This document shows positions 39,508-62,266 of a stretch of 64,000 bases of DNA, in pieces. Each line of letters opens with the position of its first letter. Position 1 is the first letter of the stretch. Origin of the DNA: Blastococcus sp. URHD0036 (GTDB taxonomy: Bacteria; Actinomycetota; Actinomycetes; Mycobacteriales; Geodermatophilaceae); contig NZ_JNIK01000002.1 of NCBI RefSeq assembly GCF_000701365.1, positions 124,001 to 188,000 on the forward strand, given 5' to 3'. Under the pieces are notes generated by a model. The model did no database searches, was not told where the DNA came from, and saw only the letters and a program-made list of their open reading frames with translations. The translations under genes were made by a program, and so were the position numbers.

Positions 39508-39551
39508 CGACTTAGACGAACCTGCAGAACCTCGAGGCGAAGGACGCGATT

Positions 39552-40823: not shown

Positions 40824-41439
40824 CGCGGGGACATCGGTGACGTGGTCGCACGAGCAACGTCTGCTGCGGCGCCGCGGGCTCGCGCCCCAGGCAGTGACAC
40901 AGACAGGAGCTCCGTCAGGAGGGCTCTCGCCGTGACTCGAGGCGCTGGGCGTACGGGCCACCGGTTCGACGGCTCCCCTGGTTGCTGTAGGTCGCACTAA
41001 GCGCCGCCGTCGAACCGCAGCACTCCGTGCGAGCCGCGTGAGGGGCGGCCTCCACTGCTGGCTGTCGACGCCAGCGGGGCGCCTTCGTGCGCCATTTCCC
41101 GCGGGGAACTTCTTCAGTAGGCCGTCAGCCTGACGTGGTCGGGCCGGTAGGCCGCCTTGAGGCAGGGACATGACCGACCGCGTCAGGTCGAGCTCCGGAA
41201 CCGATCGCCCCGGTGTTCACGGCCTGGCACCCATCGGCGCTCACTGTGCCTCCGGAAGTTCGGACCCGCCGTTCGGACCTGTCATTGACCCGTGCATCGG
41301 GCCTGGACGAGAGTTAGTGTCGCGCGTTACAACATGCATCCATGCTCGTGCTCAGCACCCGGTGCACCGGTGTCCTGCCCGGCGGGGACCCCGTCTCCTG
41401 CACGTCCGACGCAACGACCCATCGAACGGGAACCCGCAC
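40824..41439. other. Intergenic region upstream of the HSL-type esterase gene
   Basis: 616 bases. Apart from site E (41317-41330) near the right end, I see no gene, remnant or strong hairpin in it on either strand. Confidence 0.5.
41317..41330. promoter_or_regulatory. Operator-like site E
   Basis: GTGTCGCGCGTTAC, identical to site D including the two preceding bases. It lies 110 bases upstream of ATG 41440, so it probably controls the esterase/CocE genes. TAGTGT at 41315-41320 may be the -10 box, which the site would overlap. Confidence 0.65.
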
Positions 41440-42384: not shown

Positions 42385-42471
42385 GGACCGGCGGTCGAGA
42401 TCCGTCGGTCGACGACGGACCTCCACGTCGAATGCCCCGTGACCGTAAGAGAGATGGCAAGAGGAGTCGAC

Positions 42472-44211: not shown

Positions 44212-44264
44212 ACAGCACACCACTGGCCGCTGAACCCACGACGTCCTCGACGAGGAGAGACCGC

Positions 44265-45995
44265 ATGGACATGATGTACGAACGCAACGTCCCCATGAAG
44301 ACCCGCGACGGGGTGACTCTGCGCGCCAACGTCTGGCGCCCTGTGGAGGGGCAGGCGCCCACCCTGCTGATACGCACGGCGTACAGCAAGGACACCGCCT
44401 ACTTCGGCGGCACAGCCGGTGGCCACACCTCTCTGCTCACATACCTCAACGCCGGCTACGCCGTCGTCTGGCAGGACACCCGCGGCACCTACGACTCCGA
44501 CGGTGTCTTCGTCCCGATGGTCCACGAGAGCGCCGACGGTCAGGACACCGTCGCGTGGATCACCGAACAGGACTGGAGCGACGGGTCGGTCGGCACCTAC
44601 GGCGGCTCCTTCATGGGCATGACCCAATGGGCTCTGGCCACCGCCGACGCCCCCGGCCTGCGGGCCATCGCGCCCACCGCGGCCGCGGCGGACTGGCACT
44701 CGAAGCTCATCTACTCCCCGGGTGGCGCCCTGTCCCTGAGCCTCGTGACGTTCTGGGCCGCCGCGATGTACGCCGCCGAGGAACAGCGGTCCCTGCAGCG
44801 CGGTGAGACCTCTGACAACTCGGCGTTGATGCGGCTGGGCCCAGCGGCGATGGACCCGGTCTCGCTCAACCACGCCACACCCGTCGCCGACCTGCCGGTG
44901 CACGGACGAGGCCGCTGGCTCGACGACTGGCTGGCCCACCCCGACTACGACGAGTACTGGCGCGCAGTCGACCGGGCGGCACGAATCGAGCAGGTCACCG
45001 TCCCGGTGCTGTCCACCGGCGGCTGGTACGACATCAAGATCCACGGGCTGGTCACCGACTTCGTCCGGGTCCGGACGTCCGCCGGTTCCGAGCAGGCCCG
45101 GGAGGAGTCCCGGCTGGTCATCGGACCGTGGGACCACCTCAACTGGACCGGGCACTACCCCGTCCGCTCCTTCGGACCGCTCGCCGCCGTCGACCTCACC
45201 GCCTCACACCTCGAGTTCTTCGACCAGCACCTCAAGGGCACGCCTCCCCCGGCGCCGGCGCCGCGGGTACGGATCTTCGTCATGGGCATCGACCAGTGGC
45301 GCGACGAGACCGACTGGCCGCTGCCGGACACGCGGTACACCGACTACCACCTGGCCAGCGGCGGCGCGGCCAACACCCGCGACGGCGACGGCACCCTCGA
45401 ACTCGACGCACCGACCACCGACGGCAGCGACACGTTCCGGTACGACCCCCGGAACCCGGTGCCGACCGCGGGCGGCTCGCTGCTGCCGCCCGGCCCCGGC
45501 CTCGAGCTCGGGCCGGTGGACCAATGCGTGGTCGACGGCCGCGACGACGTCCTCTGCTACAGCACCGCGGTCCTGACCGAGCCCGTGGAGGTCACCGGGT
45601 TCGTCGAGTTGAAGGTGTTCGTCTCCTCCACCGCGGTGGACACCGACATCACCGCCAAGCTCGTCGACGTCTTCCCCGACGGCCGCGCCATCAATCTGTG
45701 CGACGGCATCCTCCGGCTGCGCTACCGCAACAGCCTGTCCGAGCCCGAGCTGATGGCCCCCGGCGAGGTCTACGAGGTCACCGTCCCGATGTCGGTCACC
45801 TCCAACGTGTTCCTCCCCGGGCACCGCATCCGCCTGGACGTGTCAGGGAGCAATTTCCCGCACTACGACCGCAACTCGAACACCGGCGGGGTCATCTCCT
45901 CCGAGGCGCTGGAGGACATGGTCGTCGCCGACACCACCGTCCACCACGGCGGAGCCCGACCCAGCCGCCTCGTCCTGCCCATCATCAACCGGTGA
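44265..45995 (+). CDS. CocE/NonD family X-Pro dipeptidyl-peptidase-like hydrolase (2)
   Basis: A 576-residue paralog of the preceding gene, aligning along its whole length (compare VRIFVMGIDQWRDETDWPLP with VRIFVMGIDRWRDEQDWPLP). The nucleophile segment is GTYGGSFMGMTQW and GPWDH is conserved. Start ATG 44265 sits behind CGAGGAGAG. The substrate-pocket region (about residues 130-230) is the part that differs most, so the pair has probably diverged in specificity. A hairpin follows the stop. Confidence 0.93.
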   Translation: MDMMYERNVPMKTRDGVTLRANVWRPVEGQAPTLLIRTAYSKDTAYFGGTAGGHTSLLTYLNAGYAVVWQDTRGTYDSDGVFVPMVHESADGQDTVAWITEQDWSDGSVGTYGGSFMGMTQWALATADAPGLRAIAPTAAAADWHSKLIYSPGGALSLSLVTFWAAAMYAAEEQRSLQRGETSDNSALMRLGPAAMDPVSLNHATPVADLPVHGRGRWLDDWLAHPDYDEYWRAVDRAARIEQVTVPVLSTGGWYDIKIHGLVTDFVRVRTSAGSEQAREESRLVIGPWDHLNWTGHYPVRSFGPLAAVDLTASHLEFFDQHLKGTPPPAPAPRVRIFVMGIDQWRDETDWPLPDTRYTDYHLASGGAANTRDGDGTLELDAPTTDGSDTFRYDPRNPVPTAGGSLLPPGPGLELGPVDQCVVDGRDDVLCYSTAVLTEPVEVTGFVELKVFVSSTAVDTDITAKLVDVFPDGRAINLCDGILRLRYRNSLSEPELMAPGEVYEVTVPMSVTSNVFLPGHRIRLDVSGSNFPHYDRNSNTGGVISSEALEDMVVADTTVHHGGARPSRLVLPIINR

Positions 45996-46000
45996 CCTAC

Positions 46001-46022
46001 GCCCGCGCCCACGGGCGTGGGC
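46001..46022 (+). terminator. Hairpin downstream of the second CocE gene
   Basis: GCCCGCGCC (46001-46009) pairs with GGCGTGGGC (46014-46022) with one G-U pair, six bases after the stop. It is followed by a G-rich stretch with three tandem GGCGTCCGGGG-like units up to about 46055, which may pause polymerase. The next gene has its own start signals at 46120. Confidence 0.45.
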
Positions 46023-46119
46023 GGTCGGGGGGGGCGTCCGGGGGCGTCCGGGGGCGAGCCTCACCTCCGCCGGCCGCTTCCTGACCCCGGCCCCCAGCCC
46101 GACCGACGAGGAGCCCGAC

Positions 46120-47232
46120 ATGCCCGCCCTGCCCACCGACCCCGTCGAGCAGCTGCGACGACGCGCCGAACAGGAGGTCGCCGCGGGCAACATCCCGTCC
46201 TGCCAGTTCGCACTGGCCCGCGACGGTGAGGTGCTCGTCCAGGAGACCATCGGGGCGCCGGACAGCAGCCGGTACACGATCTTCTCCGCCACGAAGCCCA
46301 TCGTCGCCTCCGTGATCTGGCAGTTGATCGCCGAGGGTGAGCTCGATCCAGCCGAGCCGGTGAGCACCTGGTGGCCGGGCTTCGCGCAGAACGGAAAGGA
46401 CGGCGTCACCCTGGACCACCTGCTGCTGCACACCGCCGGCTTTCCCCACGCCCAGCTGGACTGGTCCACCATGGGCGACCGGGAAGCGCGGGTGAAGCAG
46501 ATGGAGGCGTGGACGCTGATCTCGGCTCCGGGGTCGAGCTACGTCTACCACGGGCTGTCCGCGCACTGGGTGCTGGCCGAGCTCATCACACTGCGCACCG
46601 GACTGGACCACCGCGCCGCCGTCCGCGAACGCGTCCTGGACCCCCTCGGACTGGACCGCCTCGAGCTCGGTGTACCCCCGGAGCGCGGGCACGACGTCCG
46701 GCCGCTACAGCTGATCGGCCGGCAGCTGAGCAGGGCCGAGTTCGCCGAGTCCCTGGGCCTGGACTTCGAGATACCCGAGGGCGCGCTGGTGGACCTGCCG
46801 CCGTTCAACGAGCCGGAGGCGCGGGCGGCAGGTGTGCCCGGTGCGGGTGCGGTGTCCGACGCTCGGAGCCTCGCGCTGTTCCACCAGGCCCTGCTGCACA
46901 ACACGAGCCGCCTCTGGGATCCCGCCGTCCTGGCCGATGTGACCGGCAACGTGCGGAACCGGCTGCCCGACGCGTTCGGCATTCCGGCGATGCGCACTCG
47001 GGGCCTGGAGACGTCCGGGGACGGCCCCGGCGCAGCTGCCCGGATCGGGATGGGGAGCACCTCGCCGGGGACGTTCGGGCACCCCGGCGCCGCCGGCCAG
47101 CTCGCCTGGACCGACCCGGCCAACGGGCTGACCTTCGTGTTCCTCACCGACGGCGCTGACCAGAACCCCGCTCAGGAGTTCCAGCGCAGCATCGACCTGT
47201 GCCGGCTGGCCGCCGCCTGCGGTTCCGTGTGA
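46120..47232 (+). CDS. Serine hydrolase, beta-lactamase/esterase class C-like
   Basis: A 370-residue penicillin-binding-protein-like hydrolase. The SxxK motif is FSATKPIV (nucleophile Ser near residue 55) and the second motif Tyr lies in YVYHGLSAHW; the C-terminal GHPGAAGQLAWTDP supplies the third (HxG-type) motif. No signal peptide, so it works in the cytoplasm and is more likely an esterase (EstB-like) than a drug-inactivating lactamase. Its stop overlaps a GTG that begins a broken rhamnosidase gene, showing the two once formed an operon. Confidence 0.9.
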   Translation: MPALPTDPVEQLRRRAEQEVAAGNIPSCQFALARDGEVLVQETIGAPDSSRYTIFSATKPIVASVIWQLIAEGELDPAEPVSTWWPGFAQNGKDGVTLDHLLLHTAGFPHAQLDWSTMGDREARVKQMEAWTLISAPGSSYVYHGLSAHWVLAELITLRTGLDHRAAVRERVLDPLGLDRLELGVPPERGHDVRPLQLIGRQLSRAEFAESLGLDFEIPEGALVDLPPFNEPEARAAGVPGAGAVSDARSLALFHQALLHNTSRLWDPAVLADVTGNVRNRLPDAFGIPAMRTRGLETSGDGPGAAARIGMGSTSPGTFGHPGAAGQLAWTDPANGLTFVFLTDGADQNPAQEFQRSIDLCRLAAACGSV

Positions 47233-47550
47233 CCACCGGCCCCCGCCGCCCGCGCGTCGAGCACCGCGACGACTCGCTGGGCATCCGGACCCGGACCCCG
47301 CGGCTGTCCTGGCAGCTAGCGGACGGCGCCCGCACGCAGGGGGGTATCAGCTACGGGCGGACAACGGCTGGGAGCTGGGATCGACGGCGATCGCAGCCTG
47401 CTGGTCCCCTACGTCGGACCACCGCTGCGGTCGGGGACAGCAGGTGCGGTGGAGTGTGCGCGTCCGCACCGACCTCGGGGAGAGCCCCTGGGCGCCGGAC
47501 TGCTCGTTCGAGAGCGGGCTGCTCGGCGGGGCGGACTGGCAGTCCTCGTG
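47229..47550 (+). pseudogene. GH78 alpha-L-rhamnosidase, N-terminal remnant
   Basis: Begins at GTG 47229 overlapping the serine hydrolase stop. The first frame reads RPRVEHRDDSLGIRTRTPRL, the typical N-terminus of family 78 rhamnosidases (LGI..PRLSWQL). At about 47340 the sense continues in another frame (YQLRADNGWELGSTAI), and after a second shift as QVRWSVRVRTDLGESPWAP and FESGLLGGADW, which are also GH78-like. So at least two frameshifts are present and everything after about 47550 (roughly 800 residues) is gone, replaced by the IS110-type sequence. The island once encoded a rhamnosidase. Confidence 0.75.
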
Positions 47551-47782
47551 ATCGAACCCGCGCGACAGCCGCAGGGTCCTCCCGAGTACGAGCTCCGGGA
47601 TCAGCAGATCTGAGTCCTGCGATCGGCGCCCTTGCGGAAAGGTGAGGGAACGCCGCCTCCCCCCGCGACAGTCGCGAGGTCGCGGCCCAAGGGTTGGCGT
47701 CGAGCCCGGCGGGCCGGTGCTGCAGGCGCGCGTCAGCGCGGGGGCGGGCGAAGCCAGTCCGCAGTAGTTCTGCAGTAGTGCT

Positions 47783-48796
47783 TCAGGCGGCCTGGTCGAG
47801 GACCACGGTGTGACCGAGGCGCTCGAGCTGGGCGACCAGGCGGCGGGCGTGGGCCTGCCGTTGCGGCGGGCCAGCCACTCAGGTGCGAGGTCCTGGTAGG
47901 GCTCGTCGCGGGTGAGCATCCAGTAGGCCGAGACGAGGATCGAGTGGCCGACCGCCAGCTGGGCGCGGGCCATGCCGCGGCGGCTGGTCAGGCGGGCGTG
48001 CTGGGCGGCCAGGCAGTTGGCGCCCCTCATACGCCCGACCGACCCGGCGGCCTCGACCAGCATCGCGGTCAGCCACTTGTTGCCGTGCGGCGGCCGCACC
48101 GGATACCGCTTGCCCGCAGACTCCCGCGTTCCTGGAGCGACCCCGGCCCAGGAGGCCAGGTGCTCCGGCGTCGGGAATCGAGACATGTCTGCGCCGGTCT
48201 CGGCGATGATCACTTGCGCGACCTTCTCCCCGACTCCCGGGATCGTCTGCGGCAGCTCCGGCTGGTGCGCCCAGGGCTCGAACGCCGTGGCGATGACCGT
48301 GCTTGGCTCAGCCAGCGCGGTCTCGATCGCCTCGATTCGGCTCAGCATGGAGCGGGCAAGCTGCGCGTGCTGGGCGTCGAAAGTGCCCGGTCAGCGCTTC
48401 GGTCAGGGCTGGGATCTTGCGGCGCATCGTGCCCTTGGCCGAGTCCGCCAGCACCCGCGGATCGCTCTCCCCGTTGATCAGCGCGCCCAGCATGGCGCGG
48501 GCCGAGACGCTGGTCAGGCTCGCTGCGACCGAGGAGAGCTTGACCGAGGCGTCTTCGAGCATCGACTCCAGTCGGGTGATCTCTCGGGTGCGGTCGGCCA
48601 TCAGCTGCACCCGGTAGCGGGTCAGCATCCGCAGCCGGCGGATGTGCGGTGGTGGCACGAACGACGGCCGCAGCAGCCCGCACTCCAGCAGCTGCGCGAT
48701 CCACTCAGCGTCCTTGACGTCGGTCTTGCGCCGCGAGATCGACTTGATGGGCGCGGTGTTGACCAGCCAGACCTCCATCACCGGCAAGCGGTGCAA
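47783..48796 (-). pseudogene. IS110-family transposase, truncated and frameshifted
   Basis: From 48796 leftwards: KTDVKDAEWIAQLLECGLLR, the middle of the RuvC-like (DEDD) domain; RYRVQLMADRTREITRLE; then after a one-base shift near 48380 DAQHAQLARSMLSRIEAIE; the transposase_20 domain IPGVGEKVAQVIIAETGADM and SWAGVAPGTRESAGKR; and after another shift near 47855 the tail RLVAQLERLGHTVVLDQAA. The first about 100 residues including the initial catalytic Asp are missing. Not functional. Confidence 0.8.
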
Positions 48797-48908
48797 TCAA
48801 GATCGCAAGCGGGCACACCTCTTGCATCTTCGGTCGGGCCAACTCGTTGTGACGAGTAGCCGGCGCTGATATTGGCTGTCATGCGGCGGCTCACGGGACG
48901 ATCTCGCC

Positions 48909-49436
48909 ATGGGCAAGCGACAGCGTGAGGACCCGGACGTCCTGCACCGCAAGGCGCAGATCGCCATCCTTTCCGGCCTAGCCGACGGCATCGATGACGC
49001 ATTCGAGCTCATCCTCTCGGTCCGCCCGTTCGACGTCCGCGGCCTGTTCACGCCGGATGTCGCGCTGTTCGACGTGGCGGCAACGGCGCTCGGTCTGGCC
49101 TGCCCGCCGGGCAGTGAGCGACTGGAGTACGAGGGGCTGACAGATCGCTACCTGGCTGACCTGATGCTCGACGGCCGCACCGTTCGCCACCGGACCCAGT
49201 ACGCCATCTATGCGGCCGCCTGCATGCGCGGCGGGCTGCATCCCGACCTGCTGATGGAGGCCGGCGGCTGGGAGCCGCCGCTCTGGACGTACGCCGTCTC
49301 GGCGGTTGTCCTCTACTGCCGCGCCGCCGCGGAACGCCTCGACCTGCCGACAGCGGCGATCGCCCTGCGTGTCGCTGACGAGCTCGGCCTCGAGCTGCCC
49401 ACCGCCGGAGGGGCATCCGAGCAACTCCTGCCGTAG
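48909..49436 (+). CDS. Hypothetical protein, unknown function
   Basis: A 175-residue soluble, mostly helical, acidic protein from ATG 48909 (MGKRQREDPDVLHRKAQIAI). I do not recognise a domain. Features: several Cys (positions about 84, 109 and 136 in ALGLACPPG, AAACMRGG and VLYCRAA), the segment LTDRYLADLMLDGRTVRHRTQY, no signal peptide or membrane helix. It looks like a genuine gene (consistent high-GC codon pattern, no frame breaks). It sits 210 bases upstream of the excisionase/integrase pair and could be part of the element's own module. Confidence 0.65.
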   Translation: MGKRQREDPDVLHRKAQIAILSGLADGIDDAFELILSVRPFDVRGLFTPDVALFDVAATALGLACPPGSERLEYEGLTDRYLADLMLDGRTVRHRTQYAIYAAACMRGGLHPDLLMEAGGWEPPLWTYAVSAVVLYCRAAAERLDLPTAAIALRVADELGLELPTAGGASEQLLP

Positions 49437-49646
49437 CTCTGCGCGGGACCGGCGACAGGAGAAGCGCAGGCCCCCCGGGGCCGCAGGACCTACGCAGGCC
49501 TGAACAGGAGAAGGTCTGGAGGCTTCGACGAGCAGCCAACCACGCTCCCGTCCGGGCTGGAGAAGTGCGCTCCTGACACTGGAGAAGCACCGGCGACCCG
49601 TCGGCCATCGTGAGCTGGACATTGCTGACGCCGGAGAGGCCTGGCC

Positions 49647-49862
49647 ATGACCGACGACTCACGAGACGCATCGCTGCTGACTCTCACCGAGGCGGCCACC
49701 GTTCTTCGCACACCCGTGGCCACCCTGCGCTACTGGCGGCACCTCGGCATCGGACCCGCCGGATTCCGCTTGGGCCGGCGCGTGCTGTACCGCCGGCAAG
49801 ACCTCGACCGGTGGATCGAGGAGCAACGCACCGCCGAGGCGGTCGACCGGCCACGGCGCTGA
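49647..49862 (+). CDS. Excisionase-like helix-turn-helix protein (MerR/AlpA type)
   Basis: A 71-residue protein. The winged-helix motif LTLTEAATVLRTPVATLRYW, then GPAGFRLGRRVLYRRQDLDRWIEE, is the standard form of small DNA-binding excisionases that sit beside tyrosine integrases in actinobacterial elements (pSAM2 Xis-like). ATG 49647 gives the family's normal length. Order xis-int-att is preserved with the integrase 158 bases downstream. Confidence 0.88.
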   Translation: MTDDSRDASLLTLTEAATVLRTPVATLRYWRHLGIGPAGFRLGRRVLYRRQDLDRWIEEQRTAEAVDRPRR

Positions 49863-50020
49863 CACCCGAGGAAGGCACCGACGCGGCGTCATCCACAGGC
49901 ACGCCGCCGTCCCCAGATCAACCCGGGACTCGACCACGGTGACCTGCCCGACCGCAGGCTGACAGATCCCGGTCATCCGCACGCCGCCCACAGCCGGGTC
50001 CGACGCTGAGGGGACGAGAC

Positions 50021-51166
50021 ATGCCGAGGCCGCCGCTGGCCGTGGGGACCTTCGGCAAGGTCAACTTCCTCGTCCTGGGCAAGGGTCGGGTGCGGGCGCA
50101 GGTCGGCTTCCGCGACTTCGACGGCCGCCGCCGCTCGGTCAGCCGCTTCGGGCGGACCAAGGCCGAGGCTGAGCGCCGCCTGCGGGCCGCGCTGCGCGAC
50201 CGGGACAGCGCCCCTGACGAGGGGAACAGCAGCGACAGCCGGCTCGCCACTGTGGCCACCGCCTGGCTGGCGGAGGTCGACGACAGCGATCTGGCCACCG
50301 GCACCAAGCGGCTGTACCGCTTCGCCGTCCAGAGCTACGTCCTCCCGGGCATCGGTCAGCTCCGGCTGCGGGAGATCACCGTGCCCGCCGTCGACCGGCT
50401 GCTGACCGCCGTCCGCACGAGCCACGGCGCCGGCGCCGCGAAGTCCGCCCGCTCCGTGCTGTCCGGCATCCTCGCGGAGGCGGTCCGCCGCGGGGCCATC
50501 CCGACGAACCCGGTGCGGGAGGTCGGCTCCCGCCGCGCTCACCGCCGGCCGACGGCGGGGCCACGCGCCCTGACGGTCGACGAGGAACGCCAGCTGCGCG
50601 AGCGGCTCGCCGCCGACGACGAGACGGTCAAGCTCGACCTCCCGGATCTGGTCGACTTCATGCTCGGCACGGGCGTGCGCATCGGAGAGGCCTGCGCGGT
50701 CCGTTGGGCCGCCGTCGACCTCGATGCGGCGACGCTGCGCGTCGAAGCGACCTTGATCCGCGTACCCGGCCGCGGCCTGGCCATCCAGGAGGCGCCGAAG
50801 ACCACCGCCGGCCGGCGCACCATCGCCCTGCCGGCCTTCGTCGTGGACCTGCTCCGCCGCCGTCGGGCGCAGGTGTCCACGGCCGACGGCTCGGAGGTGG
50901 CCTTCCCCAGCCCGACCGGTCGGCTGCGGGATCCGCACAACACCAGCAGCAATCTGCGTCAGGCGCTGAATCGAGCCGGCTTCGAGTGGGTGACCTCGCA
51001 TGTGTTCCGCAAGACGGTGGCGACGCGGCTCGACGAGGCGGGGCTGTCGGCCCGCCAGATCGCCGACCACCTCGGCCACAACCGGCCGAGCCTGACCCAG
51101 GACGTCTACATGGGCCGGGGCCTGGCCGCTCCGGAGGCGGCGGCAGCGCTCGAGCGCGGCCGCTAG
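50021..51166 (+). CDS. Tyrosine recombinase/integrase 1
   Basis: A 381-residue integrase. N-terminal arm-binding part (PLAVGTFGKVNFLVLGKGRV, RAQVGFRDFDGRRRSVSRFG), SAM-like core-binding domain, then the catalytic domain with Arg in LGTGVRIGEACAVRW, HxxR in TSHVFRKTVATR, LGHNRPS and the nucleophile Tyr in DVYMGRG. All catalytic residues are present. The tRNA-Asn repeat lies 123 bases downstream, the expected place for its att site, so this is the likely recombinase for the 40-kb island. Confidence 0.93.
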   Translation: MPRPPLAVGTFGKVNFLVLGKGRVRAQVGFRDFDGRRRSVSRFGRTKAEAERRLRAALRDRDSAPDEGNSSDSRLATVATAWLAEVDDSDLATGTKRLYRFAVQSYVLPGIGQLRLREITVPAVDRLLTAVRTSHGAGAAKSARSVLSGILAEAVRRGAIPTNPVREVGSRRAHRRPTAGPRALTVDEERQLRERLAADDETVKLDLPDLVDFMLGTGVRIGEACAVRWAAVDLDAATLRVEATLIRVPGRGLAIQEAPKTTAGRRTIALPAFVVDLLRRRRAQVSTADGSEVAFPSPTGRLRDPHNTSSNLRQALNRAGFEWVTSHVFRKTVATRLDEAGLSARQIADHLGHNRPSLTQDVYMGRGLAAPEAAAALERGR

Positions 51167-51288
51167 TCAGCGTCGGGCGAAGGGCGATCCACCGGGGCCG
51201 CGGGCAAGCAAGGCCGTGACGAATCTTCGTCGTTTGTTCGTCGTAGCGGCCGGTGCGGCGGGGCGCTCAAGCGCCTGACCTGCGGAGA

Positions 51289-51325
51289 TGCTCCCCCGAC
51301 TGGACTCGAACCAGTAACCCTGCGA
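51289..51325 (-). repeat. Right copy of 37-bp direct repeat: tRNA-Asn 3' fragment, probable attR
   Basis: Identical to 11248-11284. On the minus strand, similarity to tRNA-Asn continues beyond the repeat: the 5' side of the anticodon stem with CT (GTGCGACT, plus-strand 51332-51339) is still present, but the loop between the stem arms (51326-51333) is 8 bases and has no GTT anticodon. The D-arm and 5' acceptor strand (TCCCCCG) are absent, so this is not a working tRNA. Located between two integrase genes. Confidence 0.82.
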
Positions 51326-51478
51326 TTCCCTAGTCGCACCTGGCCGGTACACACCGCCGCGTCCCACGACTGGCCTCTGAGCACTGCATATGCGGAACCG
51401 CTCAAGCCGCTGTGGACCCTTGCGCTCCCCTGTTGACCGTCATTTTCTGCGGGTAAAGTGTGGGTAAGCTGCGGGCCC

Positions 51479-52741
51479 ATGGGGCGACCACCGCTTGAGC
51501 TGGGCACCTACGGCACCATCCGCTTCTACAACACCGACACCGGCTACCGGGCCTGCACAACGGCGCGCGACTACGACGGCCGGACCCGGGCTGTGGAACG
51601 GCACGGCAAGACCAAGGCAGCGGCCGAGCGGGCGCTCAAGGCGGCACTGCGAGACCGCGCCGGTGACCACGCGAACGGTGACATCACCGCCAGCTCCCGG
51701 GTGTCGACACTGGCCGAGGCCTGGTACGCCGCGTTGACCGACCTGTCCCCCGTCACCATGCAGGCCTACCGGGCCCGGCTGGACCGACAGATCCTGCCCA
51801 GGCTCGGACAGCTGCGCGTGCGGGAGCTGAGCGTCGGCAACCTGGACCGGCATCTGAGAGGCATCACGGACCAGCACGGAGTAGCGACAGCTCGGATGTG
51901 TCGATCGGTGCTGTCGGGCATGTGCACGCTGGCCGCCCGTCATGACGCTCTTGCTCAGAATCCGGTGCGAGCCCTGGGTCCGGTGAACAGCAGAGCCAAG
52001 AAGGCGCCACGGGCACTCACCGTGCTGCAGCTGCGCCAACTGCGCGCCGCCCTGACTTACGACGACCGGGCCATCGCCCGGGACGTGCCCGACCTGGTCG
52101 GCTTCCTCATGGCCACCGGGCTGCGCATCGGCGAGGCCTGCGGTCTGGCCTGGGACGCCGTCGACCTCGAGGTCGGCACCATCGAGGTGCGGGCCTCCGC
52201 CGTCCGCGTCCGCGGGCGAGGGTTGGTGGTCAAGTCGACCAAGACCGACGCGGGGCACCGCACGCTGGTGCTGCCGCGCTGGTGCACCTCGATGCTGGGG
52301 GACCGAGCAGACCGCCTGCACGCCACCATTGCTGACCGTGGGAGCCGACCGGTCTTCCCGGCTCCGCTGGGCGGCTGGCGGGACCCGTCCAACACCCAGG
52401 CCGATCTTCGGGAAGCTTTTGCCGCCGCAGGCTTCGACTGGATCACTTCGCACTCCTTCCGTAAGACCGTGGCGACCCTCATGGACCAAGCCGGGCTCTC
52501 CTCGAGGGCAGCCGCCGACCAGCTGGGCCATGCCAACACGTCGATGACCACCGACGTCTACTTCGGCCGGAAGGTCGCCACCACCGGTGCCGCCGTAGTT
52601 CTGGAGGCGTTGAGCTCGCAACCCGAGGAGACGCCCGTGGACGGCGGCTCTTCACGCAGGAGCAACACCCTTCACCAAGTTGTTGAGGCAGAGCAGCAGC
52701 ACGGCAGTGCCCTCGGTGATCGCTTTTCTCCCCGACACTAG
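51479..52741 (+). CDS. Tyrosine recombinase/integrase 2
   Basis: A 420-residue integrase homologous to integrase 1 along its length (compare MGRPPLELGTYGTIRFYN with MPRPPLAVGTFGKVNFLV). Catalytic residues: Arg in MATGLRIGEACGLAW, HSFRKTVAT, LGHANTSMTTDVYFGRK with the Tyr. ATG 51479 starts at the conserved first residues; an earlier in-frame start at 51458 is possible. The C-terminal tail after VLEALSS is longer than in integrase 1. It starts only 154 bases to the right of the att repeat and probably belongs to a second element inserted at the same tRNA, of which 52.7-58 kb may be the eroded cargo. Confidence 0.92.
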   Translation: MGRPPLELGTYGTIRFYNTDTGYRACTTARDYDGRTRAVERHGKTKAAAERALKAALRDRAGDHANGDITASSRVSTLAEAWYAALTDLSPVTMQAYRARLDRQILPRLGQLRVRELSVGNLDRHLRGITDQHGVATARMCRSVLSGMCTLAARHDALAQNPVRALGPVNSRAKKAPRALTVLQLRQLRAALTYDDRAIARDVPDLVGFLMATGLRIGEACGLAWDAVDLEVGTIEVRASAVRVRGRGLVVKSTKTDAGHRTLVLPRWCTSMLGDRADRLHATIADRGSRPVFPAPLGGWRDPSNTQADLREAFAAAGFDWITSHSFRKTVATLMDQAGLSSRAAADQLGHANTSMTTDVYFGRKVATTGAAVVLEALSSQPEETPVDGGSSRRSNTLHQVVEAEQQHGSALGDRFSPRH

Positions 52742-53409
52742 GGCCCTCGTGGTGATAGACAGCAGGTCCCGGTCCCAAGGACCGCACCAGAGGTGACCAA
52801 CCGGTCCGGCCAAGCAAAGTCCAGTGCCCCGCGGACGATCTCCAGCTGGCCAAGCTGACTGTGCGGTCTCTATTTCCGCCACCCGCTCCCATGCGATGTC
52901 GCGGGACACCTTTCAGAGGCTCGTGGCTCGTGGAGGAGAAGTGCTGCTGTGAGCCAAGAAGCACCCCGAGAGAGCCGACGTATCCGGGAGTACGCCCGTT
53001 GCACCGAACCGCCGGACCAAGCGCCGGGAGGATGACCGGATCAGGGCAATCCGCGGGGCGCGTCGCCATGTAGACGGGGCATCGCGGGCGCCGCGACCAC
53101 CCGTGCGCGTTCATTTGAACGGCGAGTACGCCTTGCCGGATCGCGGCCGGTCGGAGGGGACGTCCGCCGGACCGCGGAAAGCGAAGGACGCCGAAATACT
53201 GGAGATCCGTTGCAGCGATCCCGGTCTTCGCCTCAGTTCCAGTCGGCTGCTCGCCGACCAGCGAGCGTCCACAGTTGCGACGCGCCTCGTGCGCTTACTG
53301 CCGCCCGCTCTCGATCGCCGATTGTCATGCAGTTGCCGTCAGATCGGCGGTGGCTCTCCTAGGCTCCTCCCTTCCGACGTCGCGAGAGCTCGCGGCGTGT
53401 CCCTCCGGG
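52742..53409. other. Non-coding or fully decayed region
   Basis: 668 bases with several short open frames of atypical composition on both strands, none resembling a protein family I know and none with a good start signal. I see no repeat or hairpin worth calling. Confidence 0.5.
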
Positions 53410-53640
53410 TCAATTCTGGGATGGCCGCTTGAACCCGCCGGTCGTGACCGTCAGGTGGGCCATCGGGCCATCGTCGGCCGCACCGTGGGTGTGGAGTTCG
53501 TCCGGTGGCGTGATGACCACGTCGCCGGGACAGATCCAGACTCGTTCGCCCGCTGTCTCGACCCAGCCGTTACCGGAGACGACGACGATGAGCTGCCCGC
53601 CGTCGTGCGAGTGCGGCCGAGCATGACCTACGTCGCCATT
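53410..53640 (-). pseudogene. Cupin-domain protein, C-terminal remnant
   Basis: Read on the minus strand and ending at the stop at 53410, the frame gives HSHDGGQLIVVVSGNGWVE, then VWICPGDVVITPPDELHTHG and MAHLTVTTGGF: the two cupin motifs with their His ligands and the PGD turn, as in small mandelonitrile-lyase-like cupins. No start codon with a signal is seen; the sequence upstream of about 53640 loses similarity. About 70 codons survive of a normal 110-140. Confidence 0.65.
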
Positions 53641-53838
53641 TGATCCGGGCTCGCCTGCGTCGCCTGCGTCATGGATGTGTTCTTCCGGCGCATCGGAGGC
53701 TGGCGCGCGTCGACCAGCGTCCCTCGCCCGACTGGGCAGGAAGCGGTGGTGGAGCAGGAAACGGAAGGAACGCCACCGCGGGTCATCGACCAGCTGCCGG
53801 CTCGCCCGTTTCCTCGCCGAAAGGCTCTCGGCGCCCTG

Positions 53839-54072
53839 TCACACGTAGTAGTGGACCATCTGCCACACCCGTGCGCATTGATCCGAGCAGAACCAGGCTT
53901 GACCGTCTGGCCGGTCCCCGCCACAGAAGACACAACCATGGGGCAGCAGCCGCCCGACCGCCCGCCTGTATCGATCCGCTCTCTGTCCGCTCCTGTCGGT
54001 TCCCGCCTGCGCCGGCGTCCCGACATCGGGAGCAACCACCACCGACTGCCCCGTGGCCTGCCGCTCATCCAT
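53839..54072 (-). CDS. Possible small zinc-ribbon protein
   Basis: A 77-residue frame from ATG 54072 ends with GCVFCGGDRPDGQAWFCSDQ and CARVWQMVHYYV. Two CxxC-like pairs (CVFC and CSDQC) could bind zinc. The first half has no recognisable features and the ribosome-binding site is weak, so this may be a remnant of a longer protein instead of a gene. Confidence 0.3.
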   Translation of the reverse strand: MDERQATGQSVVVAPDVGTPAQAGTDRSGQRADRYRRAVGRLLPHGCVFCGGDRPDGQAWFCSDQCARVWQMVHYYV

Positions 54073-54378
54073 CGCTCGGGAACCGTCACCTCCGACCTCA
54101 AGCGCACGCGTGTCGACAGGGGCGCGCTCGTGGGTACGCGGAGCGCCACTCCGCCCAACGAGGACTCGGACCACCGATCCCATGCGACGCCAGGCACTCC
54201 TAGACTCGACAGCTACTGCCGCTGGGCTCATAGTATCCAGGATGCAGCACTCGACCCACGAACACAACGGTCAGTGCCGCACCTCCTTGTACGGGCGACC
54301 TCCATCCCGCGCCGAGCGCCCGAGCCCGGTCGCGTCCGAGGTGAACGGGCTCCGGAGAGGCGGTCGGCGGGGCCATCT

Positions 54379-54960
54379 ATGAAGACGGGCCCGGGGTCGA
54401 TGGGGTCTTGGTGGGCGCTCCACCCAGACCCGCTCCTCACCGCCGGCGATCAACCCTTGCCCCGACAGGAACGGGCGCCATGGGTGCCCGGACGGGGAGA
54501 TGCGGATCCGGGCAGACTGCTCGTCACCGTGCCGGGCGGCACCTACGATCGCTCCTATTGGGACACCCGCCTGCCTCAGGACGACGCCTACAGCTTCGCC
54601 GACGTGGCGACGGTCCGAGGGTGGCTCGTCCTGCTGCTGGACAACGTCGGCACGGGTGCCAGTTTCCGTCCGGCCGACAGCGGGTCGGTGACCGTCGCAG
54701 TGATGGCGGACGCCGTGGCGCAGGCCCACCCGGGCGGTCTCGGCCCGGATCCGGGACGGCGAGGTAGCCGGCCTGCCAGCCGCGTCACCATCGTCCGTCG
54801 TCGGGGTGGGGCACCCCCTCGGCGGTCAGGTCGTCGCCACCGCGCAGGCCCGGCACACCCCTTTTGATTGCGTCGCGATCCTCGGCAACTCTTCCTGGGC
54901 AACTCAGAGGCCGCCCGGCGGCCCCGCGGCCCATCCACCGAGGTGACGCGAGAGCTGGCA
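54379..54960 (+). pseudogene. Alpha/beta hydrolase, 5' part of a broken gene
   Basis: From ATG 54379 the frame reads LLVTVPGGTYDRSYWD, then RGWLVLLLDNVGTGAS, typical first strands of an alpha/beta hydrolase. Near 54735 the sense moves to another frame: VVGVGHPLGGQVVATAQARH and VAILGNSSWATQ. The nucleophile elbow is GHPLGG instead of GHSLGG, so even the catalytic Ser is lost. The sequence runs on to about 55017, where an IS481-family element begins, and the 3' part reappears beyond it at 56174-56293. Confidence 0.7.
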
Positions 54961-55017
54961 GAGACAGGTCTTAACGTGATGAGCGGCGAGAGCTGGGAGT
55001 CGGGCTACCTCGAGGTG

Positions 55018-56174
55018 CCTAGGCCTTGCTGGTCACGGGTTGAGGTGACACCTCTTCGATCTTGGAGGGGGTCACGGGGTGGGAGCCTTCGGTTGCTTCG
55101 GTGACCAGAAGGAGACCCTCCCCGTGACCCCTGACCAGATCATCCATGCTCGGCGTGCCCACGTGTTGGAGCAGGCCGCGCTGACCGACGTGACGACCGC
55201 CTGCAGGGCCGCCGGCGTCTCGCGCACCAGCTACTACCGATGGGTGGCCAAGGCCGAGAAGTACGGACTGTCGGCGCTGATGCCCAAGGACCGGCGGGCG
55301 CCGGTGATGCCGAACGCGATGAGCGCCGAGGAGGTCAGCACGATCTTGGCGACCGCGGTCGCCAAGGCCACGCTCGGTGCCCGGCAGTTGGTCGACCACC
55401 TCGCCACGGCCGGGGTGCACCGGTCGGCCTCCGGCATCCAGAAGGTGCTGTGTCGGCACAACCTGGGAACCCGCCGTCAGCGGGTCGCAGCGCTGGCGTC
55501 GCTGACCGCCGCCGGCACCGGGCAGCTGACCGATGCGGCGCTGGAGGGCCCGTTCGGGTTCTGCCTGGCTGCCACCGACCCGGGGCAGCTGGTCTGCCTG
55601 GACACCTTCTACGTCGGCAAGCTCAAGGGCGTTGGCGCGGTCTACCAGCTCACCGCGATTGACGTGGCGACCCGCTGGCTGGTCGTGCGGCTGATCGTCG
55701 GAGACAAGGGCGCGCCAGTCGCCGCTCGCTTCCTCGATCAGGTTCAGGCCGCGCTCGGCCAGATCGATGTCGAGCTGACCGGTGTGCTGACCGACAACGG
55801 TCCGGAGTTCACCGGCCGAGCATTCCGGGACCACGTCGCCGACATCGCGGTTGCCCATCACCGGATTCCGCCGCGCAGCCCGAACCACAACAGCGTCTGC
55901 GAACGCGTCCAGGGCACCGTGCTGCAGGAGTTCTACCGGCCCTACTTCCACCGCGGCCGAGTCGACCGAATCGCCGATCTCGACGACGCACTGCAGACCT
56001 GGACCACCGACTACAACACCCGCCGACGCAACCACGGCGACTACATGCGAGGCCGCAACCCCCGCCAGGTCCTCGAGGCGATCACCGCCCGCAACGCCCT
56101 CTGCCAAGCTGCCTGACGACAGCGCAGCCGACGGCCCCACCTGTCACCTCAACCCGTGACCAGCAAGCTCTAGG
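55018..56174 (+). mobile_element. IS481-family insertion sequence with inverted repeats and NCTAGN target
   Basis: Left inverted repeat at 55025-55050 (starts CTTGCTGGTCACGGG) is identical over 26 bases to the reverse complement of the right end (about 56142-56167). The flanks are CCTAGG (55018-55023) and TCTAGG (56169-56174), matching the IS481-family preference for NCTAGN with a 6-bp duplication, one position now different. The element itself is about 55024-56168 and carries one transposase gene. It splits an already damaged alpha/beta hydrolase gene. Confidence 0.85.
55124..56116 (+). CDS. IS481-family transposase (DDE integrase core)
   Basis: A 330-residue transposase from GTG 55124. N-terminal helix-turn-helix (TDVTTACRAAGVSRTSYYRW), a linker, then the rve catalytic core with the first Asp in LVCLDTFYVG, the second in VLTDNGPEFTG and the Glu in SPNHNSVCERVQGTV; the C-terminal YNTRRRNHGDYMRGRNP is the family's usual end. 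No frame break and intact terminal repeats suggest the IS may still be active. Confidence 0.92.
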   Translation: MTPDQIIHARRAHVLEQAALTDVTTACRAAGVSRTSYYRWVAKAEKYGLSALMPKDRRAPVMPNAMSAEEVSTILATAVAKATLGARQLVDHLATAGVHRSASGIQKVLCRHNLGTRRQRVAALASLTAAGTGQLTDAALEGPFGFCLAATDPGQLVCLDTFYVGKLKGVGAVYQLTAIDVATRWLVVRLIVGDKGAPVAARFLDQVQAALGQIDVELTGVLTDNGPEFTGRAFRDHVADIAVAHHRIPPRSPNHNSVCERVQGTVLQEFYRPYFHRGRVDRIADLDDALQTWTTDYNTRRRNHGDYMRGRNPRQVLEAITARNALCQAA

Positions 56175-56293
56175 CGGTCCTCCGCGAGCAGTTCTTCACT
56201 CCCGACGTCCCGGAAGAACATATCGACGCCGCGTTGACGGTGCTTCCACGCGAGGCCGCTCTCGTACCGTCCCCCTTGGGAGACGTCTCGTAG
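56174..56293 (+). pseudogene. Alpha/beta hydrolase, 3' remnant beyond the IS
   Basis: Forty codons to the stop at 56291-56293 read AVLREQFFTPDVPEEHIDAA and LTVLPREAAL, which has the look of the last helix of an alpha/beta hydrolase. It continues the broken gene at 54379-54960 on the other side of the IS481 element, though in a shifted frame. The 56294-56560 stretch that follows has no recognisable content. Confidence 0.5.
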
Positions 56294-56564
56294 CGGATAC
56301 GCACCCGGTGTTCCCGTGCTACGCGGGACGGGATATGTCCCCGACCCCTCGCGAAGAGGCGCTCGGCTTCAGCGGCTCCCCCGACGTCACCCCCTTCCTC
56401 CTGCCGGGTCCGCACACCGTCACAACGTGGCCGGCAACCGGCATCTCCTGTGGGGCCGCCTGCTCACCCGGGCAACCGACGCCACGCAGGTACCCCGGGA
56501 TCGGTCGCGGCGCTCGCAGGCGGATGACCGTCGACCCAGCGCGCTGCCCGGCCCACGAAGACAC

Positions 56565-56785
56565 TCATCACCCGCCACGATCAAGAAGGAGTGGGACACC
56601 GGCAATACCGTGATCTGATCGAGCAGCACCAGGCAGTCATGGCGTACGCCGACCAGATCGTCCACCCGGGGCCCGGCGCCGGTCACGAGGGCGCCCGGGT
56701 TGTCTTCGAGGGGACGCCGGCCGACCTGGGCGCCGACTGCTCAACCTTGACCGGCCAGCACCTTGCGGAGCACGTCGGCGCCTGA
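56565..56785 (+). pseudogene. UvrA-like excinuclease ATPase, C-terminal remnant
   Basis: A frame ending at 56785 reads LIEQHQAVMAYADQIVHPGP, GAGHEGARVVFEGTPADLGA and LTGQHLAEHVGA, which matches the C-terminal end of UvrA-type ABC proteins (IEHHQAVMAHAD...DLGPGAGHDGGRVVFEGTP). Just upstream DTGNTVI continues the similarity in another frame. Only about 70 of 750-950 residues remain. The closest match seems to be the UvrA paralog group used in drug resistance instead of the housekeeping gene. Confidence 0.65.
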
Positions 56786-56889
56786 GCTGGCCTTGTCTCG
56801 GCCGGTGACATATCGGAACCGCAATGTCGGGCATCGCCGGCCGTTCTAGCCTGACACCGGCGCATCTTCCTCCGCTAGCTGGCGTCGGA

Positions 56890-57472
56890 TCAGTCCCCCT
56901 CCGCCGGCTGGAGAAGGCGGTCCACCAGCCGCGCAGTCAGCTGGGCGACGTCTGCCGCCGGCGCGGCGGCCAGGGTCGCGAAGGCCCCGGAGGTCCGGCT
57001 CAGCACGACACCCGCGAGTGGTGCGGTCACGATTTCCGCCCGCAGCTGGGCCTCCGCAGCCAAGCCATTGGGCTCGGCGCGCGCACGGGACGGCTGGATC
57101 AGGGCTCGGTCGAGCACCTCGAGGGCCGCTGTCTGCAGTTGGCGTCCTCGTGGGGGCGGACGGCGGCGTCCAACGTGGGCGTGAGGCCGCGCAACGCGAC
57201 GCGCTCCAGCAGATGCCGGACGACCTCGGGGTCAGCGACATCCCTCGGGACGACGTCCGCCTGGTACCGCCGGATGGAAGCCAGGTAGAGCGCGGCCTTG
57301 CTGCCGAAGTAGCGGGCGATCATGGCGGGTCGACCGCCGCCCGTTGTCCGATCTCGCGGACAGTGGTTTGTTCGTAGCCCCGTTCGGCGAACACATGTGC
57401 GGCAGCTCGGAGCAGTCGTTCCCGGCTGTCGGTGGCGTCGCGACGCCGGATCAGCGGAACGGGCTCGGCCAT
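56890..57472 (-). pseudogene. TetR-family regulator with two frameshifts
   Basis: Starts at ATG 57472 (MAEPVPLIRRRDATDSRERL, LRAAAHVFAERGYEQTTVRE, IGQRAAVDP), a clear TetR helix-turn-helix. One base near 57320 breaks the frame; the continuation is AMIARYFGSKAALYLASIRR. A second break near 57135 leads to LQTAALEVLDRALIQPSRAR and the end LVDRLLQPAEGD. The three pieces together form a normal-length TetR protein, so decay is recent. Confidence 0.75.
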
Positions 57473-57627
57473 GCCGGCGAGGTCGGTCACGGCGTCCGCT
57501 CCAGCGACCCGACACTCTTCTCGAGTGTGAGCGTGCTCGAGATCGCAGCGTCGACGTCCTGCTCGATCTCCAGTTCCTGATCGGGAGTGAACGAGGCGGA
57601 CAGCCCGACGTCCCAGCGTCGCCACGC

Positions 57628-57782
57628 TCACCAGCGCCGCGAGAGGAGCAGCCCGGCGCTAACCAGCGCGCCGGTCGTGTAGCCGGCAGCGGAGGGGAAG
57701 ACCCCGGATGCGGCGGTGTATGCGGTGAGGATGGTCCCTGCCAGGGCGCTGCCCAATGGAGTAACCGACCTGCGGCATGGGT
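57628..57782 (-). pseudogene. MFS transporter, C-terminal remnant
   Basis: The minus frame ending at the stop at 57628 reads GSALAGTILTAYTAASGVFP and SAAGYTTGALVSAGLLLSRRW, the last helices of a DHA2-type MFS transporter (usually preceded by RQVGGSLGSALAGT; here PQVGYSI in a neighbouring frame at about 57770). Only about 50 codons remain. It may have been the target gene of the TetR remnant beside it. Confidence 0.5.
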
Positions 57783-57897
57783 ACGGGGCTCGGCCATCGG
57801 ACATCTCCTTCGACTGCGTGGACTAATCCTCTCGCCTCTCCCCCGCTCCCGCCGGGGCCAGACCCATCGAGCGCGGAGTCACACGCGCCGACGGCGC

Positions 57898-58083
57898 TCA
57901 GGCCGGGACGCGGTCCAGCACCCGGTCGATGGACTTGTAGATCCGCTGCTCGGAGACAGCGCACGCCGAACCGATCTGCTGGGCGAACAGCGCCACCCGC
58001 AGCTCCTCGACCATCCAGCGGACCCCGGGCTGCCCGGGCGTGCTGGCCTCGCGAGCGAGGGCAGCACGCCTCGGGGTGCGGCC
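57898..58083 (-). pseudogene. HrpA-type ATP-dependent RNA helicase, C-terminal remnant
   Basis: The minus frame ending at 57898 reads GQPGVRWMVEELRVALFAQQ, IGSACAVSEQRIYKSIDRVL, the extreme C-terminus of HrpA helicases (RWMLEELRVSLFAQ...GTAHPVS). Sixty of about 1300 codons survive, and the piece stops just before the aldehyde dehydrogenase gene's end at 58097. It is a displaced fragment and does not function here. Confidence 0.6.
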
Positions 58084-58096
58084 TCTGGCCTGGCGG

Positions 58097-59587
58097 TTAG
58101 AGGACCACGGAGATTGCCTTCTCCCGCGTGTAGCTCACCAGGCTCTCGAAGTCGCCGGCCTTCCCGACGCCGCTGTGCTTGAACCCACCGAAGGGCATGC
58201 CGCTCGGTCCGCCGTTGGCGGTGTTGATCCACAAGCGGCCGGCCTCGATCTCGTTGGCGAGTCGGAGGCCCGGCCCGAGGTCGCCGCAGGCGATGCGCGC
58301 GGTGAGCCCGTACTCGACGCCGTTGGCGATCTCGATGAGCTCGTCCTCGGTGGACCACTTCATGATGGATACGACCGGTCCGAAGATCTCCTCGTTCGCG
58401 ATCCGCATGCCGCGGTCGACATCGGCGAACGCCGTCGGCTCGACGAAGAAGCCGCTCTCGAAACGGTCCGGCGTGCCGCCGCCGGCCAGGAGTCTGGCGC
58501 CCTGACGCTGTCCGATGTCGATGTAGTCGCGAACGCGGGCGAAGTGCTGCCGGAAGGCGAGAGCGCCCATCTCCGTCGCCGGATCCCGGGGGTCGCCGAT
58601 CTTGACCTCGCCGAGGGCCTGGACCAGCCGCTCGCAGAACGTGTCGTACATCGACTCGTGCACCAGGACGCGGGACGTGGACTGACACGACTGTCCGGCC
58701 TGGACCCCGCGGAAGTTCATCCCGCCCACGGCCATCTCGACTGCCAGCGCCACGTCGACGTCGGGGAGGATGGCCAGCGGCCCCTTTCCACCGAGCTCGA
58801 GCGTCACGTGCTTGAGCTCCTCGGCGGCGGCACGCATCACCAGCCGTCCGGTCCGGATGCTCCCGGTGAAGGAGATCCGCGGGATGGCGGAGTGCTCACT
58901 GATGGCGTTGCCGATGCTCGCGCCGTCACCGGTCAGGACGCTGACCAGCCCGGCCGGAAAGACCTCCTGCGCGATGCGGCCGATCTCCAGCGAGGAGAGC
59001 GGCGTGAACTCCGAGGGCTTCAGGACCACGCCGTTGCCGGTCGCCAACGCGGAACCGATGGCCGAACACGTTCCGAGAGAGGGGTGGTTAAACGGCAGTA
59101 TGTGGCCGACGAGGCCGTAGGCCTCGCGGGTGCTGTAACCCCAGATGCCGTTGGCCTGGGGGAACGTCGCGCCCTTGATCTCCTCCGCCAGACGGGCATG
59201 GCTCTTGATCATCCGGGCGCCGTAAGCGGCCTCCATCCGGGTCGCGCTGATCGGCATGCCCGCATTGATGGTGTCCAGCCAGCCGAGCCGCTCGTTCGCC
59301 TCAAGGAGGCGGTCCGCGAAGGCATCCAGCAGACCGACGCGCTGGGACGGGGCGACCTTCGCCCATTCCTTCGCGGCTTGCCGAGCAGAATCGATGGCGC
59401 GGTCGAGGTCGTCCCGATCGGCGTTGGGCACCGAGGCGACCACCGAGCCGTCGATCGAGGACTCGATGTCGGAGTACTTCCCGTTGACCGGCTCGTGGCC
59501 GCCGCCGCCGTAGACGAGCCCCCAGCCGGTCTCGGGGGGCTCGATGGGCTCGACCGGTGCCAAACCCGGCGTGGACAGAGTGGTCAT
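58097..59587 (-). CDS. NAD(P)-dependent aldehyde dehydrogenase
   Basis: A 496-residue ALDH. Features: HILPFNHP near residue 165 with its Asn, GNGVVLKPSEFTPL, the catalytic Glu in LELGGKGPL, nucleophile Cys in GVQAGQSCQS, and the terminal FGGFKHSGVGK. Length is normal. It is the last gene of the right-hand minus-strand cluster, 241 bases after the first acyl-CoA dehydrogenase, and may oxidise an aldehyde from the same substrate to the acid activated by the CoA ligase. ATG 59587 follows no strong box but gives the expected N-terminus. Confidence 0.93.
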   Translation of the reverse strand: MTTLSTPGLAPVEPIEPPETGWGLVYGGGGHEPVNGKYSDIESSIDGSVVASVPNADRDDLDRAIDSARQAAKEWAKVAPSQRVGLLDAFADRLLEANERLGWLDTINAGMPISATRMEAAYGARMIKSHARLAEEIKGATFPQANGIWGYSTREAYGLVGHILPFNHPSLGTCSAIGSALATGNGVVLKPSEFTPLSSLEIGRIAQEVFPAGLVSVLTGDGASIGNAISEHSAIPRISFTGSIRTGRLVMRAAAEELKHVTLELGGKGPLAILPDVDVALAVEMAVGGMNFRGVQAGQSCQSTSRVLVHESMYDTFCERLVQALGEVKIGDPRDPATEMGALAFRQHFARVRDYIDIGQRQGARLLAGGGTPDRFESGFFVEPTAFADVDRGMRIANEEIFGPVVSIMKWSTEDELIEIANGVEYGLTARIACGDLGPGLRLANEIEAGRLWINTANGGPSGMPFGGFKHSGVGKAGDFESLVSYTREKAISVVL

Positions 59588-59828
59588 CTCGACATCCGCT
59601 CTTCGTTGGTGTTGTCCGAGTAAGTGCTCTGCGACCGATCAGCGGGCGCGCGTCGCCGCATCCTCACCCGCGCTCCGCCCGGAGGTGCGTGCCCGCAATC
59701 CGTCGGTGCAGGTGGGTGATGCGGACGTTAGGCCGTGAACTCCGACGCCGGGGCTCGTCAGACCAGCACCCCGCGCGACCGCCACCCGCACATCTCATCG
59801 GCCTCCGCCCGCAGGAAGGTCTCGCCGG
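59588..59828. other. Gap between aldehyde and acyl-CoA dehydrogenase genes
   Basis: 241 bases, presumably the promoter and leader of the aldehyde dehydrogenase gene. I see no clear palindrome or hairpin. Confidence 0.4.
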
Positions 59829-60944: not shown

Positions 60945-60990
60945 GAGCCCCTCCTCCGCTTCCCGTCCACGACGCCGCCGGTGGCCACCC

Positions 60991-62226: not shown

Positions 62227-62266
62227 GGGATCTCCTCCGGTCGGTGCGGCGTCGGGGCGAGCGCGG

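Follow-up and report, generated by a model that had tools for sequence, protein, structure and literature searches.

The window analyzed here is a 64,000-nucleotide stretch of the draft genome of Blastococcus sp. URHD0036 (G000; 19 contigs), corresponding to positions 124001-188000 of contig C2 (252,362 bases). It contains two tyrosine integrase genes, int1 and int2, on either side of an attachment (att) site composed of the 3' half of a tRNA-Asn gene, and a second copy of this site lies further to the left. Coordinates refer to the window unless a contig is named; types A and B denote the placement of the integrase gene (int) relative to att, as defined below. The main features are:

11248..11284, minus strand: outer att copy of the left element (tRNA-distal), an exact 37-bp copy of the tRNA-Asn 3' half
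11285..51288: left element, A type, 40 kb, delimited by the two repeats
50021..51166 (stop TAG), plus strand: int1, A-type tyrosine integrase, tRNA-proximal, with its 3' end facing the tRNA 3' end
51167..51288: left arm of the shared att (A side), holding CCGCAGGTCAG and a terminator-like site at 51216-51233
51289..51325, minus strand: shared att copy, the exact 37-bp tRNA-Asn 3' half, forming the tRNA-proximal end of the left element and the tRNA-distal end of the right element
51326..51478: right arm of the shared att (B side), 153 bp from att to the start of int2
51479..52741, plus strand: int2, B-type tyrosine integrase, tRNA-distal, with its 5' end facing att
51326..64000: window portion of the right element, which runs on to C2:252362 (77 kb) and from there presumably along contig C1 to tRNA-Asn (50 kb)

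The int1 stop codon at 51166 is followed, after 122 bases, by the repeat (51289-51325) and, after a further 153 bases, by the ATG of int2 at 51479, so that the two co-directional genes are 312 bases apart. The distances of 123 and 154 bases given in the initial annotation, made from the sequence alone, are these same gaps counted inclusively. The encoded proteins share 47.9% identity over 384 aligned columns (E 2e-103), and the Pfam domains Phage_integrase (PF00589) and Phage_int_M were matched in both, which bears out their earlier description as homologous along their length yet clearly different. Residues R216, H325, R328, H351 and Y361 of int2, which are invariant across a 14-row alignment, are presumably the catalytic residues of the tyrosine integrase pattern R..HxxR..H..Y. 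The int2 protein comprises 420 residues compared to 380 in its nearest relative (93% identity), the reading frame extending ∼40 residues past the end of the latter.

The 37-bp repeat is identical to C1:222434-222470, i.e., the 3' half of a tRNA-Asn gene plus one base, and ARAGORN placed the gene itself, tRNA-Asn(GTT), at C1:222396-222469. A query of 201 bases around the repeat matched three places genome-wide, namely 11248, 51289 and the 3' end of tRNA-Asn on C1. This is the sole tRNA-Asn gene located in the genome (where a tRNA-model scan, which does not name the types, detected 47 tRNAs), versus two displaced identical 37-bp halves; exact identity over 37 bases would be far beyond chance expectation. 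The earlier observation that the window holds neither an intact tRNA-Asn gene nor a third repeat was confirmed: ARAGORN reported no tRNA in the window or along all 252,362 bases of C2, and no third repeat copy was found on C2 with a tolerance of up to 7 substitutions. The initial annotation had suggested a search for the intact tRNA-Asn gene and more 37-bp copies to the right of the window. The rest of C2 contains none, but the intact gene, with the third copy, is present on C1, where no additional half copy was found within positions 192001-272000.

Comparison with homologues supports the assignment of both integrases to elements that target tRNA-Asn, with different positions relative to that gene. 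In genome G002 (taken as Blastococcus sp. TF02A-26) a 93% identical int1 homologue ends ∼125 bases from an intact tRNA-Asn gene, and in Blastococcus endophyticus CPCC 205247 a 98% identical homologue is the gene directly beside the intact tRNA-Asn, in int1-like geometry. In addition, the left element matches CPCC 205247 at its int1 end over 2,457 bp (92% identity), up to position 51338; in that strain the A end adjoins the intact tRNA-Asn. The int2 homologues, in turn, are found at displaced tRNA-Asn halves. That of G001 (taken as Trujillonella endophytica DSM 45413; 93% identity) lies 151 bases from a displaced half, which shares one contig with the intact tRNA-Asn at a distance of 91 kb, and that of the single-contig genome G003 (76% identity) stands at a displaced half 42 kb from the intact gene. 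All eight family B loci that have tRNA-Asn and whose open frame reaches at least 379 residues show a spacing of 150-161 bp between att and int, compared to 130 and 423 in the broken B loci L104 and L113, respectively.

These results fit the proposal in the initial annotation of two tandem elements at one tRNA-Asn. We consider it very likely that two integrative elements stand in tandem at this gene, and that the integrases flank the shared att copy because the two types place int differently. Two features of a tandem array were found: an intact tRNA with displaced 3' fragments, and for each member its own integrase and fragment (int1 with that at 11.2 kb, int2 with that at 51.3 kb). Their order on one molecule would follow from the contig join discussed below.

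Integrase geometry was typed in 150 loci, corresponding to 122 distinct proteins. These loci comprised 80 named loci and 70 from an integrase search of 112 genomes of the family; 30 of the latter were those returned and 40 were hand-picked from a longer list, so that the family sample is not random. Three arrangements were distinguished: (i) geometry A, with the int 3' end toward the tRNA 3' end (56 of the 122 distinct integrases), (ii) geometry B, with the int 5' end toward the anticodon side of a displaced half (13/122, all tRNA-Asn), and (iii) geometry C, with the tRNA followed by int in the same direction (21/122). The other 32 initially had no geometry label. A T-arm search within 400 bases of these added 17 to B and one to A, at halves of other tRNAs, and 14 stayed unlabelled. 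One of these 17 (L095), although counted as B, shows an additional T-arm in a fourth arrangement, 76 bases downstream. The tRNA type of the 17 added B loci was assigned on the basis of the half only; in two of them the intact gene was located. In the single-contig genomes G093 and G081, the intact tRNA-Lys(TTT) and tRNA-Thr(TGT) lie 196 kb and 108 kb from the half, respectively, and int is tRNA-distal in both; with G001 and G003, this position was measured in four relatives, whose intact tRNA is 42-196 kb away. A different tRNA target of int2, which the initial annotation had named as grounds for rejecting the tandem, was not observed in its nearest relatives, but in the wider clade tRNA-Lys and tRNA-Thr serve as targets as well.

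A tree of 115 integrases was built by a quick method, with branch support from the SH-like approximate likelihood ratio test (SH-aLRT) only and a midpoint root. Its rows were the 122 proteins, minus eight under 340 residues (including B loci L104 and L113), plus int1. Eight of the 115 rows carry no geometry label and 12 no merged target label, leaving 103 with both; L147, a long readthrough trimmed to 400 residues, is unlabelled in the tree although a tRNA-Asn half adjoins it. The 28 B rows form one side of a branch (SH-aLRT 96.8) that also contains two unlabelled rows (28/30), and the 21 C rows form one side of another (SH-aLRT 100). The sister group of the B branch has geometry A. On the 103 fully labelled rows, geometry changes twice and the tRNA target 13 times (16 times with unmerged target classes). 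In this sample, the position of int is therefore far more stable than the tRNA target. The nesting of the groups and the spread of A suggest that the changes ran from A to B and from A to C, and in the simplest view the B clade would have derived from A-geometry ancestors by one shift of int relative to the attachment site of the element (attP). The C clade (L127-L143, L149, L150, L152, L153; 21 Geodermatophilaceae loci, 382-416 residues) has int directly behind tRNA-Asn, at 19 intact genes and two halves, 76-110 bases away.

Several relatives carry comparable tandem arrays or junctions. G019 and G008 each have two displaced tRNA-Asn halves beyond the tRNA (L201 and L202; L198-L200), the second half in G008 being a weak match, and in G019 a C-type integrase stands next to the tRNA and a B-type one at the far end; both genomes contain further tandem arrays. 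In G015, a full A-type gene has part of a B-type gene (∼150 residues) across att, close to where the contig ends, and residues 130-383 of a B-type gene are found on another contig. In G022, an A remnant of 81 residues lies beside a full B-type gene at att.

The connection between C2 and the tRNA-Asn gene on C1 was assessed by comparison with relatives. On C1, the tRNA end and its flank match those of tRNA-Asn in G001 over their first 779 bp (89% identity), and the C1 flank is thereby the tRNA-proximal end of a B element. At their right ends, C1 and C2 share a tail-to-tail overlap of 444 bases, of which 443 are identical. Moreover, C2:54-132k and G001:C20:3-76k are largely collinear, the latter block sharing its contig with tRNA-Asn, on whose 3' side it lies; the order on this single contig is tRNA-Asn, the B element and, past the distal att, the block collinear with C2:54-132k. 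From the B-type flank, the end overlap and the collinearity with G001, we infer that C1 is joined to C2, which would make the right element ∼127 kb in total.

Some observations speak against this reconstruction. The left end of C7 fits the same 444-base end of C2 with 444/444 identical bases, and the contig ends alone are undecisive, leaning, if anything, to C7 by one base. C1 and C2 are not bridged by any contig, and the gene content of the C1 stretch is absent from the G001 element. G001 C20:100-120k (distal att at 128.7k) maps to contig C14 of G000 and not to C2, which means that a rearrangement separates G000 and G001 and that their outer flanks differ. Finally, the 37-bp cores do not differ and thus give no clue as to which element was inserted first. 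The single mismatch in the overlap, situated 215 bases from one of its ends, was considered as a discriminator between C1 and C7; it agrees with C7 and was insufficient to decide.

Besides their termini, int2 and one gene (C2:192155, 92% identity), the B elements of G000 and G001 have little in common; for C2:193252, the partner of this gene, the best match in G001 lies outside the B element (94% versus 86% inside). The flank of the G001 distal att, which maps to C14, also maps partly to G003:3.86-3.88 Mb. As the distal-att flank differs between relatives, the tRNA-Asn region has been rearranged. A native chromosomal flank of tRNA-Asn was not found, G003 3560-3580k and G001 C20:100-120k mapping to other G000 contigs, and the C2:60-80k block had no collinear counterpart in the five genomes compared, among the matches listed. 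A stretch of 93 bp at the G001 distal att resembles the A arm of the window (86% identity). This suggests that an A element was once present there as well.

The gene content of the two elements differs. The left element carries functions for sugar and peptide uptake and breakdown (GH1, GH2 and GH43 proteins, an oligopeptide ABC transporter, a LacI regulator and an S15 peptidase), and no conjugation domain was found among the 13 of its proteins scanned (part of its genes, int1 included). The 50 kb of C1 between the tRNA and the contig end encode T2SSE and T2SSF proteins, a TraG/TrwB coupling protein and a TrwC relaxase with helicase domains. An FtsK-like TraB translocase and Rep are hallmarks of actinomycete integrative and conjugative elements (AICEs), whose type of transfer is TraB/FtsK-like. 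Neither of these two domains was detected among the 11 C1 proteins scanned (a subset). As regards the relaxase, coupling protein and mating-pore ATPase of integrative and conjugative elements in general, TrwC, TraG/TrwB and T2SSE domains were present, and no VirB4 domain was detected among the 11 proteins. Three further features were noted:

47347-48348: piece of an IS110-type transposase near the end of the left element
52742..58000: poorly coding patch in the right element, just inside its distal end
55079-56116: rve-type transposase gene (Pfam rve) in the poorly coding patch

In the proposed arrangement, the order from the tRNA outwards would be the intact tRNA-Asn, the ∼127-kb B element with its conjugation genes, the shared att, the 40-kb A cargo element, the outer att at 11248 and the chromosome. 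The B element would occupy the part of C1 between the tRNA and the contig end and continue on C2, from the right end of that contig back to window position 51326. An A-type int, on the tRNA-3' side of att, comes to lie at the proximal end after integration, and a B-type int, on the anticodon side of att, at the distal end; with the B element between the tRNA and the A element, int1 and int2 would necessarily meet across the shared copy. Each integrase may excise its own element via this copy, while the outermost att pair would release both together (∼167 kb), so that the A element could ride along with the B element.

It also seems moderately probable that this actinobacterial clade moved int across attP once and kept it there through several changes of tRNA target. 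With int tRNA-distal, integration would exchange its upstream sequence, and int expression would then vary with the state of the element (integrated or excised) and with the neighbor, here int1. The promoter of B-type genes should lie in the ∼125-220 bp between att and int, comparable to the att-overlapping promoters described earlier (PMC2951348), and that of int2 is probably located within the 153-bp right arm. A scan of 51100-51600 gave no match to a sigma-70-type promoter; it did reveal the terminator-like site at 51216-51233 (mean of 0.3 in shuffled sequences), which speaks against read-through from int1 to int2.

Other readings of the locus were weighed against the tandem. One is that a single element carries two integrases, int2 being part of the left element or a captured spare, and that only the 40-kb element is real. 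The homology, common direction and spacing of only 312 bases of the two genes are compatible with it, but int2 homologues possess their own att 150-161 bp upstream, and among 30 loci a full int1 across att occurs only in the window (L084), with a piece in L087. Furthermore, the B elements of G001 and G003 (91 and 42 kb) end at int2, and the int1 homologue of CPCC 205247 directly adjoins the intact tRNA-Asn. We regard this reading as extremely improbable and already largely refuted. It is also very unlikely that the left element is complete and the right one eroded, with only int2 and a scar remaining and chromosome to the right of 58 kb. The initial annotation had proposed such erosion into the 52.7-58 kb zone, and gene calls indeed cover 28% of C2:176742-182000, compared to 80% of C2:182000-252362; C2 also lacks a third repeat. 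Nevertheless, conjugation genes are present on C1, and C2:192155, to the right of 58 kb, recurs at 92% identity inside the G001 B element, though the best match of its partner lies outside. As a full account, erosion was rejected in view of the B-type end at the C1 flank of tRNA-Asn: the zone would be no more than a decayed patch at the distal end of an element that continues to the end of C2 and, given the join, would reach tRNA-Asn on C1 together with the conjugation genes.

An ectopic array, in which a rearrangement carried both half copies away from tRNA-Asn, is unlikely as well. It would accord with an outer flank unlike that of G001, with the half copy and A-type integrase pieces found 529 kb from tRNA-Asn in G005, and with the fit of C7 to the right end of C2. 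Set against this, the simplest route from the B end on C1 reaches C2 via the end overlap, and in G001 the C2 block and tRNA-Asn share a contig.

Tandem elements at one tRNA gene are well known, whereas a clade with a tRNA-distal integrase may be new. Fean5518/Fean5534 of Frankia in tRNA-Lys and Sav3708/Sav3728 of Streptomyces in tRNA-Arg are tandem AICEs, and the Frankia elements excise both singly and jointly, circles having been seen (PMC3218068). As in the present case, two elements occupy one actinobacterial tRNA gene and, for Sav3708/Sav3728, the integrases come from two subfamilies (PMC3218068); the right element described here differs in its TrwC relaxase and coupling protein and in the tRNA-distal position of its integrase. 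For Islander, 3,919 islands are recorded, with 125 tandem arrangements of at least two (PMC4383910); our locus differs in having two integrases that meet at one att and its tRNA on another contig.

The shapes of tRNA-integrase pairs have been classified as STI, SIT, OC and OD in a survey limited to integrases adjoining a tRNA gene, which also covers the autoregulated KplE1 integrase and predicts that int is autoregulated when its promoter and the att region overlap (PMC2951348). By our reading, geometry A is OC and geometry C is STI. A B-type int instead adjoins a displaced half, which can be as far as 196 kb from the tRNA gene, and such a survey would not list it as such. In ICEKp1, a tRNA-Asn element, int transcription shifts with integration, the integrated gene being driven by the adjacent tRNA promoter (PMC13023037); in contrast, a B-type int stands at the opposite end from the tRNA. 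No description of a clade with a tRNA-distal integrase was found among the titles and abstract openings listed in a literature search, which mostly excluded subscription journals. Finders that seek an integrase beside a tRNA gene would miss, or assign wrong bounds to, elements with int at the far end, some of which exceed 100 kb. The B clade and its A-type sister group permit a direct test of int position relative to attP against regulation, and the shared att leads to the prediction that one site serves two integrases.

The CCGCAGGTCAG motif lies on the minus strand at 51275-51285, just past the tRNA 3' end, and is perhaps an arm site. The motif or a near variant was seen a few bases past the tRNA 3' end in most A-type ends displayed and in both B-type proximal ends seen (C1 and G001), and is lacking in L123. 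As regards other A-type integrases, G005 contains a displaced tRNA-Asn half with A-type integrase pieces (L082; G005:C11:767908-767946), 529 kb from tRNA-Asn on its 5' side, which is an ectopic or relocated copy.

Among the matches listed, no plasmid or phage integrase reached 60% identity to int2, the best being 32.5% for plasmids and 40.8% for phages (Arthrobacter phage Kepler). An excisionase-like HTH_17 gene is located at C1:222674-222895, ∼200 bp inside the C1 end, and a similar gene is found near the G001 end. An excisionase gene (xis) beyond attP as a clade-wide rule was dropped, the HTH_17 gene lying downstream of int in L089, L100 and L115. The last of these has a second excisionase-like gene upstream of int.

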